From a virus: 21,459 nucleotides of DNA. The translations under genes and the position numbers were made by a program. Below the pieces are notes generated by a model. That model was not told where the DNA came from. It saw nothing but the letters and a program-made list of their open reading frames with translations, and ran no database searches. Below are positions 4,385 through 6,577 of this stretch, in pieces (position 1 is the stretch's first letter; the number at the start of each line of letters is the position of its first letter). The stretch is taken from positions 1 through 21,459 of IMG/VR virus record IMGVR_UViG_3300030098_006029. The stretch is one strand, 5' to 3'.

Positions 4385-4726
4385 CTATACCTTAAACGGC
4401 CATTTTAGACCCGTTTTCCTTTCAAAGCTAGATACATTCTTTCTGAGTACCGCTTTGTTCTTTACTGCCCTGGGATTGTCTAGCCCATAGTTCTGTAAGG
4501 TTGCCAAGTAATTACGCTCTGAGCCAAGTGCTTTTGCAAACGCCTCTACTTCTGATTTTGTTCCGATTACTCTTGTTTGTGGCACTCTATTGCCAAACAT
4601 CCCTTTCAATAAGGACTTGACCATGTAACCAAAAGAAGCCAAAAAGCTTTCTCGTAGTTCTGGGTCTCTCAAGTGATCGAAATTGATTTCAAACTCTTCT
4701 AATTTGTCTTCATTTAAGTCTTGCAT
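4385..4726 (-). CDS. Conserved-looking 113-aa protein upstream of the tape measure, function unknown
   Basis: A small soluble protein, acidic at the N-terminus (MQDLNEDKLEEFEINFDHL) and basic at the C-terminus. The end, SSFERKTGLKWPFKV, and the middle part FAKALGSERNYLATLQNYGL look like a compact helical domain. I recall similar small proteins in marine T4-like phages, without an assigned function. It is the first gene after a terminator and a promoter-like element, and its stop lies six bases before the tape measure start, so the two are probably co-transcribed and may be translationally linked. That place suggests a tail assembly factor or a partner of the tape measure, but this is inference. 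The Shine-Dalgarno site (AAGG, about 12 bases upstream) is weak; no other in-frame Met occurs before residue 35. Confidence 0.75.
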   Translation of the reverse strand: MQDLNEDKLEEFEINFDHLRDPELRESFLASFGYMVKSLLKGMFGNRVPQTRVIGTKSEVEAFAKALGSERNYLATLQNYGLDNPRAVKNKAVLRKNVSSFERKTGLKWPFKV

Positions 4727-4767: not shown

Positions 4768-4800
4768 AAAAATAAAGCCGGGAGCGAACTCCCGGCTTTT
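4768..4800 (-). terminator. Rho-independent terminator after the gp26-like/small ORF pair
   Basis: Bases 4774-4784 and 4789-4799 form a perfect 11-bp stem (core GCCGGGAG / CTCCCGGC) with the tetraloop TTCG on the transcribed strand, followed by ATTTTTATAAAA. It separates the sheath-tube-gp26 unit from the tape measure unit. Confidence 0.88.
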
Positions 4801-4855: not shown

Positions 4856-5023
4856 TCATCTTGCTTTACCAGCTTCTTGAATAGCTTTTGCTTCGGCCTC
4901 TATTTGCTTTACCAATCTTTCAACAAACCATGTTCTGAGCCCGATGGGTAAACTGTATGCTTCTGTCAAACTCCACCCTCCCTTATACTTCAGGAAGAAG
5001 AATTGCTCATACACTTGCTCCAT
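4856..5023 (-). CDS. Small tail-assembly-associated protein (55 aa; possible chaperone extension)
   Basis: With ATG at 5023 this encodes 55 residues, MEQVYEQFFFLKYKGGWSLT onward, ending in a charged helix (VERLVKQIEAEAKAIQEAGK). The start lies four bases after the TAA of the gp26-like gene. The frame is open further upstream to a GTG at 5089 (77 residues), overlapping the end of the gp26-like gene by 62 bases; I prefer the ATG because that overlap is long and the conserved-looking part begins near it. No strong Shine-Dalgarno site precedes the ATG, so coupling or frameshifting from the upstream gene is likely. The position between tube and tape measure is where other phages make a frameshifted tail chaperone extension. 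The WSLTEAYSLP part is familiar from small ORFs in marine T4-like phages; function unproven. Confidence 0.72.
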   Translation of the reverse strand: MEQVYEQFFFLKYKGGWSLTEAYSLPIGLRTWFVERLVKQIEAEAKAIQEAGKAR

Positions 5024-5027
5024 ATAA

Positions 5028-5915
5028 TTATCGGTCAGGCCAAAAAAAGTCCGCAGTAAACGGCACCTCCATTTCTGTAGCGTAGTCACAGTGTGAGCAG
5101 ATGAACTGCTGAACCATGTCTACATTTGGCGTAATGACCCTATAAATAGTGCGTAAAAACCTAGAATCCCTTGCTGGCATGTGATCTACGAAATACGCGA
5201 TGTTTTTTTGTGTTGTATCGCCATTAACAGCGACAATAAAGCTTCGAAGCTGGCCTGTTAGCGTTGTGCCAGCTTGGACTCCCGCTTTCTTGTGAATGCG
5301 GTTATTCTTTGCAGTTCGCTCCTCATCTGCTCCAGTAAGCATTCTTACAGTGACTGTTGCGTTGGTCGCAGGAAGCGTAATATTAAAGTGAGCACCTTCT
5401 CTAGTAACCGCATCGTACTCAGTATATGCGTTAGGATCCGTATTCGTAACTTCACCCAAATCAAACTCACATGTTGACGTTTCAGCACAGTTTGGACAAG
5501 TTACTTTTGTAAGGTACTCTGGGCCGTAGCCTGAAGCCCGTGCTGCAACAATAATAGCGTTCTTATCGCCAACTAACATGTTGTTTGCGTTAATTCGTTT
5601 ATCGACAATTAGATTATTGATCATTCTGTTGAGAGCAGTACCGTTCTTTAGTAAAGCTCTAGACGTTAGAATGTCCTCATCTTTTGCCGTCATTTGTCGA
5701 ATTTCAATTGTTTCGACTCCGCTTAGTACATGCCCTTCGGGGTAAAACTCACCTCGTGAGGGCAGTTCCACGAACTCAGTAGGCGCAACAAACTGAAACG
5801 GCGAAGCAGTGTTAGCCGTCTCATTAGTATGTGTTGCTGCTGTAGGAGTTTCGGTGGATGCATCTTGTGTTGCGCCGGTTGTTGGCGTCAATCGATCATC
5901 ATTATTTCTTGACAA
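5028..5915 (-). CDS. T4 gp26-like baseplate/tail assembly protein with a zinc-ribbon-like Cys pattern
   Basis: A 295-residue protein. Residues 1-40 are a Thr/Ala-rich, probably disordered leader. The family core begins at about residue 47 with EFVELPSRGEFYPEGH and continues through EIRQMTAKDEDILTSRALLK, typical of the T4 gp26 baseplate family. Cysteines at 140, 143 and 149 (CPNCAETSTC) and at 273 and 276 (CSHC) suggest a bound zinc ion. The start is TTG at 5915, chosen because AGAGGTGA lies at ideal spacing before it and no in-frame ATG occurs near it. The gene follows the tube gene and precedes the tape measure, so it could act in tail assembly instead of, or as well as, in the baseplate. 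Its last codons overlap the upstream extension of the next ORF across a run of seven T. Confidence 0.82.
   Translation of the reverse strand: MSRNNDDRLTPTTGATQDASTETPTAATHTNETANTASPFQFVAPTEFVELPSRGEFYPEGHVLSGVETIEIRQMTAKDEDILTSRALLKNGTALNRMINNLIVDKRINANNMLVGDKNAIIVAARASGYGPEYLTKVTCPNCAETSTCEFDLGEVTNTDPNAYTEYDAVTREGAHFNITLPATNATVTVRMLTGADEERTAKNNRIHKKAGVQAGTTLTGQLRSFIVAVNGDTTQKNIAYFVDHMPARDSRFLRTIYRVITPNVDMVQQFICSHCDYATEMEVPFTADFFWPDR
5141..5150 (-). promoter_or_regulatory. Internal copy of the promoter-like element within the gp26-like gene
   Basis: The coding strand reads ACTATTTATA, identical over ten bases to the elements before the 93-aa and 477-aa genes. Here it lies inside the gp26-like reading frame (codons for Thr-Ile-Tyr), 118 bases before the small ORF start. 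It may be an internal promoter or chance; I lean to chance. Confidence 0.2.
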
Positions 5916-5965: not shown

Positions 5966-6577
5966 TTAGGGCGTGTTGGTAGGATATGGATCATTGGCGC
6001 CCCACCACTCGGTGTTGCCTGGATCGGCGCCGGTGCGGGCGCTTCCTGTCTTCGTTTCTAACGTGGCCCAGTCATATTGAAATTCCATTTCTACCTCTGT
6101 TAGCTCTTCTGAACTATAATCTAGGTTACCATATGTTACCTTGGAAATCCAAGCATTTTTAAGCGTCCATTTTTCAATCATAGTGCCGTTGGCATCGATC
6201 TGCTCAATATACACATCACCCAAGGTCTTAACAGCCGAGGACTTTGACATCGAGGTATGATCATCGGCGGTTGATGGAGGGTGATATCCTGCGTATGTGA
6301 CGATATCAGACAAAGTGGCTGCCATATCTGGATTCGTTGGATCAACCATCTTCATGCTAACAGGAGACCAAGTTGTCTTACCCGGGAACTTAAACTTATG
6401 ATTCAAATAATCATGCTCCTGTGTACTGATTTCGAAGCTGGGCTTGTCTACAGACTTTGCATACCACATGTACCCGGAAGAGCCGAGTCCGGTAATGTTT
6501 CCGATTTGAACTCGAAACCTAAAACCTCTTTTAGGGTCGCGACCAGTTCCTTCTGTGGGTGTTGTCCAAAATGGCAT
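5966..6577 (-). CDS. 19: Tail tube protein (T4 gp19-like)
   Basis: A 203-residue protein. The sequence RFRVQIGNITGLGSSGYMWY near the start, then KSVDKPSFEI and KFKFPGKTTWSPVSMKMVDP, is typical of T4-type tail tube proteins, which fold as two beta-sheets and stack as hexameric rings inside the sheath. T4 gp19 is 163 residues; the extra length is mainly a mid-protein insertion near residues 95-115 and a polar C-terminal tail after about residue 183. It follows the sheath gene directly, as gp18-gp19 do in T4. The start has an AAGGAG site, and a variant of the promoter-like element lies upstream, so the tube may be made from its own transcript as well as from sheath read-through. Confidence 0.92.
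   Translation of the reverse strand: MPFWTTPTEGTGRDPKRGFRFRVQIGNITGLGSSGYMWYAKSVDKPSFEISTQEHDYLNHKFKFPGKTTWSPVSMKMVDPTNPDMAATLSDIVTYAGYHPPSTADDHTSMSKSSAVKTLGDVYIEQIDANGTMIEKWTLKNAWISKVTYGNLDYSSEELTEVEMEFQYDWATLETKTGSARTGADPGNTEWWGANDPYPTNTP

Follow-up and report, generated by a model that had tools for sequence, protein, structure and literature searches.

The window analysed here, a virus contig of 21,459 nt (21.5 kb) taken at its full length, carries all of its large genes on the minus strand, in the order gp23-like major capsid, sheath, gp19-like tail tube, gp26-like gene, small ORF, 113-residue ORF and probable tape measure (Table 1). This order agrees with the sequence-only reading, which had placed the gp26-like gene and the small ORF as a pair between tail tube and tape measure; the 113-residue ORF and a terminator-like hairpin precede the tape-measure gene. 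The gp26-like protein belongs to Pfam PF12322 (T4_baseplate, the gp26/gp51 family; E=6.4e-11, 42.8 bits, cut-off 24.5) and matched the baseplate hub family phrog_150 (E=2.1e-15). The 113-residue ORF gave no Pfam match and no confident PHROG match. The tape measure protein was assigned as probable mainly by size and place, its family matches being weak (PF20155 TMP_3, E=0.028; phrog_971, E=6e-4). The strong terminator-like hairpin lies directly 3′ of the small ORF, upstream of both the 113-residue ORF and the tape-measure gene.

Table 1. Features of the gp26-like locus (window coordinates)
Feature	Coordinates	Strand	Basis or remark
Tail tube protein, gene preceding the pair	5966..6577	-	phrog_4542 tail tube, E=2.5e-25; PF06841 T4 gp19
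gp26-like gene, zero frame; putative short gpG-like form, 295 residues, ending FTADFFWPDR	5028..5915	-	PF12322, phrog_150
Conserved GGAGG	5066..5070	-	20 nt before the P-site codon
Possible small RNA hairpin CCGT-N5-GCGG	5051..5063	-	Directly 5′ of the slip site; arms nearly invariant at synonymous positions
Candidate slip site TTT TTT TGG	5040..5048	-	P-site TTT 5045-5043, proposed +1 re-pairing on TTT 5044-5042, then GGC
+1-frame extension, 61 residues (GLTDNYMEQVYEQFFFLKYKGGWSL...) and stop; putative gpT-like fusion part	4856..5041	-	Conserved peptide in relatives; resembles DUF6760 below cut-off
ATG, rival start for a separate small ORF, without ribosome site	5021..5023	-	ATG in 55/73
Intrinsic-terminator-like hairpin	4774..4799	-	11-bp stem, then ATTTTTATAA
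113-residue ORF between the pair and the tape-measure gene	4385..4726	-	Without family
Probable tape measure protein, 824 residues	1904..4378	-	Position and length

Near its 3′ end the gp26-like gene contains a minus-strand run of seven T residues (5048-5042), read in the zero frame as GAC TTT TTT TGG CCT GAC CGA TAA with the stop at 5030-5028, while the +1 frame of the small ORF is open across this run and reaches its end at 4856, both as described from the letters alone. Joining the two frames at the slip site by one step gives an uninterrupted 352-residue protein with the predicted junction peptide ...TADFFGLTDNYMEQ.... The earlier proposal that slippage would fuse a 55-residue part to the gp26-like protein was right about the continuous fusion, with one refinement of its length: the extension of the frameshift product comprises 61 residues from GGC at 5041, which the 55 residues counted from the ATG understate.

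The sequence-only reading had named comparison of relatives as the check on programmed frameshifting. We collected 166 distinct junctions (<95% nucleotide identity) by searching viral contigs three times, the queries being the small ORF, the gp26-like protein by itself and a profile of diverse gp26-like proteins, and by adding MAG contigs and cultured phages; the 73 closest relatives formed the first set. In a protein search of cultured phages, the 55-residue small ORF as query found no match. The relatives retain the slip sequence, and their +1 extension stays open. A +1-slippery codon precedes the stop in 165/166 junctions (152 TTT_TGG, 4 CTT_TGG, and TTT with a T or C after it in the others), and in 164 of the 166 the +1 frame continues beyond the stop for 35 codons or more. 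Among the 73 closest relatives the P-site TTT and the following TGG are invariant (73/73 each), although TTC makes up 17% of the codons for Phe in other parts of the genes and 48% within the extensions. Just 2 seven-T runs occur in 131,412 nt of the remaining sequence of these genes. The junction arrangement is far beyond chance. The relatives share the extension peptide FFGLTxxYMExVYEQFFFLKYxGGWSF.EAYNLPVGLR.WFVERL. Two relatives were awkward: L264, where TGG lies farther from the stop, and L268, a high-GC junction without a clear extension.

Codon-by-codon comparison of the 73 relatives indicated where selection changes frame. The zero-frame residues are the conserved ones as far as TTT TGG; starting at TGG, conservation passes to the +1 residues, and the zero frame drifts and then stops. 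Invariant +1 residues (73/73 each) are a Gly, a Leu with the third base of the codon free and, past the gp26 stop and immediately before the ATG position, a Tyr written as TAT or TAC. Any CCN would serve for the zero-frame Pro after TGG, yet 72/73 use CCT, since this T also provides the middle position of the Leu codon in the +1 frame. On the other side of the slip, a +1-frame stop lies within 45 nt upstream in 17/73, and therefore the +1 frame is not read there. In-frame stops in the overlap had been proposed as evidence against frameshifting; they were found only at these upstream positions, where they speak against a separate start of translation but leave frameshifting untouched. The zero-frame A-site codon TGG (7.4 per 1000 in this genome) is rarer than the +1 codon GGC (31.9 per 1000), which is the relation that the PRFect authors require for a forward shift (PMC10885494). 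A −1 shift from TTT TTT TGG would run into TGA after two or three codons.

The kept slip site, the open +1 frame under selection from the slip onward and the absence of a usable start in many relatives support the interpretation as a programmed frameshift. We consider it very probable, from the comparative sequence evidence, that +1 programmed frameshifting yields the 295-residue gp26-like protein together with the 352-residue fusion, and that the two form a tape-measure chaperone pair of the lambda gpG/gpGT type. A fraction of ribosomes, with tRNA-Phe on the second TTT, would slip forward by one base; the tRNA would re-pair with the overlapping TTT, GGC would be read next and translation would continue for 61 codons. 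We infer that this shift takes place in vivo at some efficiency, and that both products would act like gpG and gpGT in contractile-tail assembly, binding the tape measure protein and handing over tube subunits.

The alternative that survives best, and that we still regard as improbable, involves no frameshift: the small ORF would encode a separate protein, translated by re-initiation at the ATG at 5023-5021 just past the gp26 stop (TAATTATATG). An ATG stands at this place in 55/73 relatives, this window included; in Actinomycetota loci the corresponding small ORF apparently begins at an ATGA/GTGA overlap; and all 34/34 cyanophage-type genes have an ATG at a distance of 5 nt from the first base of the stop codon. 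However, the other 18 of the 73 relatives have replaced the ATG (ATA 7, TCN 7, AAT, GTG, ACC, ATT), GTG being the sole common start among the replacements, and 14 of these have no ATG, GTG or TTG anywhere between the slip and the conserved core. The same held for 68/165 junctions of the wider set, where 16/165 have no start all the way back to the previous in-frame stop (L268 was omitted from this count, its extension being unclear). The earlier claim that the small ORF lacks a good ribosome site was borne out, as no Shine-Dalgarno sequence precedes the ATG. Re-initiation also leaves the fixed TTT TGG unexplained, and the +1 frame is under selection already 6 codons upstream of the ATG. Since starts are absent in many relatives, independent initiation cannot be the general mechanism, although coupled re-initiation could add to frameshifting in those phages that keep the ATG.

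The remaining alternatives concern how the two frames come to be joined. The sequence-only reading had called the shift "+1 (equivalently −2)", and a −2 shift of the phage Mu type leads to the same final frame and is possible on paper by re-pairing on the seven T residues. Six of the 73 relatives, however, read TTC TTT TGG with only four T, and others read CTT TGG; at TTC TTT TGG or TTT CTT TGG the codon met by the P-site tRNA after a −2 shift would be mismatched, whereas a +1 shift lets it re-pair on TTT in every case. This argues against the −2 half of the claim, leaving it very unlikely, and the +1 half stands. Transcriptional slippage, by which a mixed mRNA pool would give the fusion from shortened mRNA, we judge just as unlikely: T runs can promote RNA polymerase slippage, and seven T is a borderline length, but the relatives with four T, with CTT TGG or with TTT C keep the same frame arrangement, and therefore run length is not the selected trait. 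An error of sequencing or assembly, with a true run of six T and one continuous gene, had been raised at the outset as homopolymer runs are error-prone and six T would join the frames; it is excluded in practice by the recurrence of the same frame break in 166 distinct loci from many samples and cultured phages, including those with four T or CTT TGG and no long run.

Upstream of the +1 slip site, TGGAGGTNCCG and CGGA are kept at degenerate positions. GGAGG occurs at the same position in 121 of the 152 TTT_TGG junctions, compared with 63 occurrences in 131,412 nt elsewhere, and its Glu codon is GAG in 73/73 in genes that prefer GAA by 1003 to 532 (35% GAG). A spacing of 20 nt from the P site is beyond known stimulatory spacings and too far for the prfB or dnaX type. 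GGAGG as the signal for an internal start was rejected, there being no conserved start codon at a usable distance downstream. Between GGAGG and the slip, CCGN-N5-NCGG can pair; its variable pair in the 73 relatives is CG in 51, TA in 12, TG in 5, CT in 4, TT in 1 and CA in 0, so that C-G, T-A or T-G is present in 68/73, and in the wider set of 152, 25 of 38 changes of this pair on a tree lead to bases that can pair. For four examples, RNA folding gave z of about −1.8 to −2.8. As the covariation is modest and mostly runs through G-U, we did not rely on it. The hairpin would be covered by a ribosome standing on the slip site. In the window, GGAGG and the CCG/CGG arms (5051-5070), conserved at synonymous sites, lie within about 25 nt before the slip.

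Frameshifted tail chaperones in −1, −2 and +1 forms are already well known, with −1 in lambda, −2 in Mu and a "very likely" +1 in haloarchaeal HSTV-2 among the gpG/gpGT type (PMC5009743). The window shows the features of this type: an overlapping ORF pair between tail tube and tape measure, a conserved slip and a second frame without a necessary start. As in lambda G/GT, two products would be made from overlapping frames near the tape-measure gene, the shift adding a small C-terminal part. In contrast to lambda, the pair belongs to the T4_baseplate (gp26/gp51) family with a zinc-ribbon-like region, the predicted slip is +1 at UUU_UGG with a conserved GGAGG and hairpin upstream, and the tape measure does not follow directly, an ORF and a terminator-like hairpin lying in between. 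To our knowledge, a zinc-ribbon-like region is absent from gpG. The site resembles the +1 shift of prfB (release factor 2; CUU_UGA) in that a P-site YUU would re-pair on UUU, and some relatives here indeed read CTT TGG. It differs from prfB in its A-site codon, which is UGG in 73/73 and not a stop, in the position of its GGAGG, 20 nt before the P-site codon where prfB has a Shine-Dalgarno sequence ~3 nt before the slip, and in showing no sign of autoregulation.

Structural comparison used models of two unmodified proteins, the window protein and a gp51 96% identical to that of T4. When the Foldseek PDB candidates for the window model were aligned with VIA-align, the HK97 tail assembly chaperone (2ob9) ranked first (Z 5.6, rmsd 5.0, 85 aligned) and YqbN (3klu) second (Z 5.2, rmsd 7.5, 91 aligned), the next best reaching 2.7; every Z was under 8 and hence weak. 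The HK97/YqbN match covers the N-terminal half of the window protein. The fold evidence is supportive only, because Foldseek alone gave E=6.8 and probability 0.10 against 2ob9 and the gp51 model had no tail-chaperone match in the PDB. Neither the fusion profile nor gp51 had a relative in sequence searches of the PDB. Position, homology to the T4 hub chaperones, the pairing of a short with a long form and, weakly, the fold point to a gpG/gpGT-type chaperone, the likeness that the sequence-only reading had proposed.

In T4, gp26 and gp51 are hub assembly chaperones (PMC3004832), and both carry T4_baseplate as the window gene does, the Pfam match spanning nearly the whole of gp26 and residues 1-201 of 249 of gp51. 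Profile comparison, in which all E-values refer to single comparisons, related gp26 to gp51 at E=1.9e-24, the cyanophage extension to the last 58 residues of gp51 at 97.2% and E=3.2e-11, and the whole cyanophage fusion to gp51 through to its C-terminus at E=5.8e-17. Pfam and PHROGs agree, PHROG 634 spanning both the gp51 tail and the cyanophage extension. The gp51 model predicts three helices at 206-248 after the gp26-like part, so that gp51 would end in an additional helical part, the homologue of the cyanophage extension. The window extension and the T4 gp51 tail gave no match when aligned directly, and the link between them therefore runs via the cyanophage family, to whose extension that of the window is weakly related (39%, E=3e-4). 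Genes 26 and 51 of T4 are separate, divergently transcribed and without such an overlap (L150:7803-9229), whereas the window phage has one gene and a predicted frameshift. By sequence comparison gp51 is a paralogue of gp26, and its tail matches the cyanophage extension, which suggests that T4 probably makes the pair from two genes, gp26 as the short form and gp51 as the long form. A precedent for such a two-gene replacement is the Bacillus thuringiensis phage 0305phi8-36, whose gp143 and gp144 are described as G and GT from related genes with no frameshift (PMC2147016); the proteins are others and so is the lineage.

The arrangement extends to distant relatives. The +1 layout, with TTT_T, CTT_T or TTT_C, was found in the cultured phages Flavobacterium phage immuto, Microcystis phage Mel-JY01, Streptomyces phage Alone3, Listeria phage LIS04 and Bacillus phage SP-15, and also in Streptococcus phage GXN1 and a 484-kb metagenomic phage. 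In two further phages, Pseudomonas phage PA5oct and a metagenomic one of 595 kb (L149:2311; L147:2269), the same gene has T TTT TTC with a −1 layout, and the latter phage also has an ATG past the stop. Rhizobium phage IC12 reads T TTT TTC, and RL38J1 reads T TTT TTG. Cyanophage-type genes carry U_UUU_UUC at the same place in 34/34 distinct junctions, preceded by AGT, GAT, TCT or AAT, always ending in T, with GGAGG exactly 10 nt upstream of the slip in 28/34. This is the classic −1 arrangement of dnaX. These genes are probably a −1 frameshift version of the gp26-family pair; as their ATG just past the stop is always present, re-initiation may occur there. Their slip lies before a small ORF annotated as 'baseplate hub assembly catalyst' (L153:3660-3700; L158-L237), and Synechococcus phage Sf-FS3 has a probable −1 frameshift without annotation.

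Small proteins of the DUF6760 family (PF20546) occupy the same place after a zinc-ribbon protein and share the residue pattern YEE...W...L...R..W with the extension, which scored 15.2 bits for the window and 21.3 for the best phage relative scanned, both below the family cut-off of 27. Across L353-L376, in many of the inspected Actinomycetota loci, the DUF6760 ORF follows a gene ending in a zinc-ribbon motif and, unlike the window extension, apparently starts at an ATGA/GTGA overlap and not at a slip; the upstream proteins scanned there gave weak zinc-ribbon matches only and no T4_baseplate match. In the Bacteroidota loci L375 and L376 a longer protein ends with the DUF6760 part in the same frame, and a Pfam scan of L375 placed PF12322 (2.5e-9) and PF20546 (28.6 bits) in one frame, both above cut-off. 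A DUF6760 search in the first class of genomes gave nothing new. The Actinomycetota and Bacteroidota loci may represent injection systems.

We think it likely that these loci share one gp26-family module, realised by a +1 shift here, by a −1 shift in the cyanophage type, by coupled starts or in-frame fusion in the injection-system-like loci and by two paralogues in T4, with gp26 as G and gp51 as GT. Atkins et al. describe G-T frameshifting as conserved in long-tailed phages except T4 (PMC5009743), and the T4 review of Leiman et al. lists gp51 as essential and of unknown function (PMC3004832); the gene pair bridges the two statements. Should gp26 be the G form and gp51 the GT form, the proposal is directly open to T4 genetics and gene 51 gains a testable role. 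In the open-access literature searched, we found no prior report linking the gp26/gp51 family to frameshifting or to the G/GT scheme. The site would add to the known +1 shifts a UUU_UGG with a conserved putative RNA element upstream, and in marine T4-type phages and cyanophages the gene would be mis-annotated.

In the deposited records examined, the fusion is unannotated and the small ORF either has an arbitrary start or is not called. Several records start the extension internally, leaving about 36-51 residues (L142:2333-2443; L146:2309-2428; L144:2306-2461), and one misses it altogether (L145:2206-2439). One 305-kb contig, assigned to a Methylococcaceae MAG, has the same gp26-like match close to each of its ends (L258 and L259) and looks like a mis-binned jumbo-phage genome with overlapping ends.
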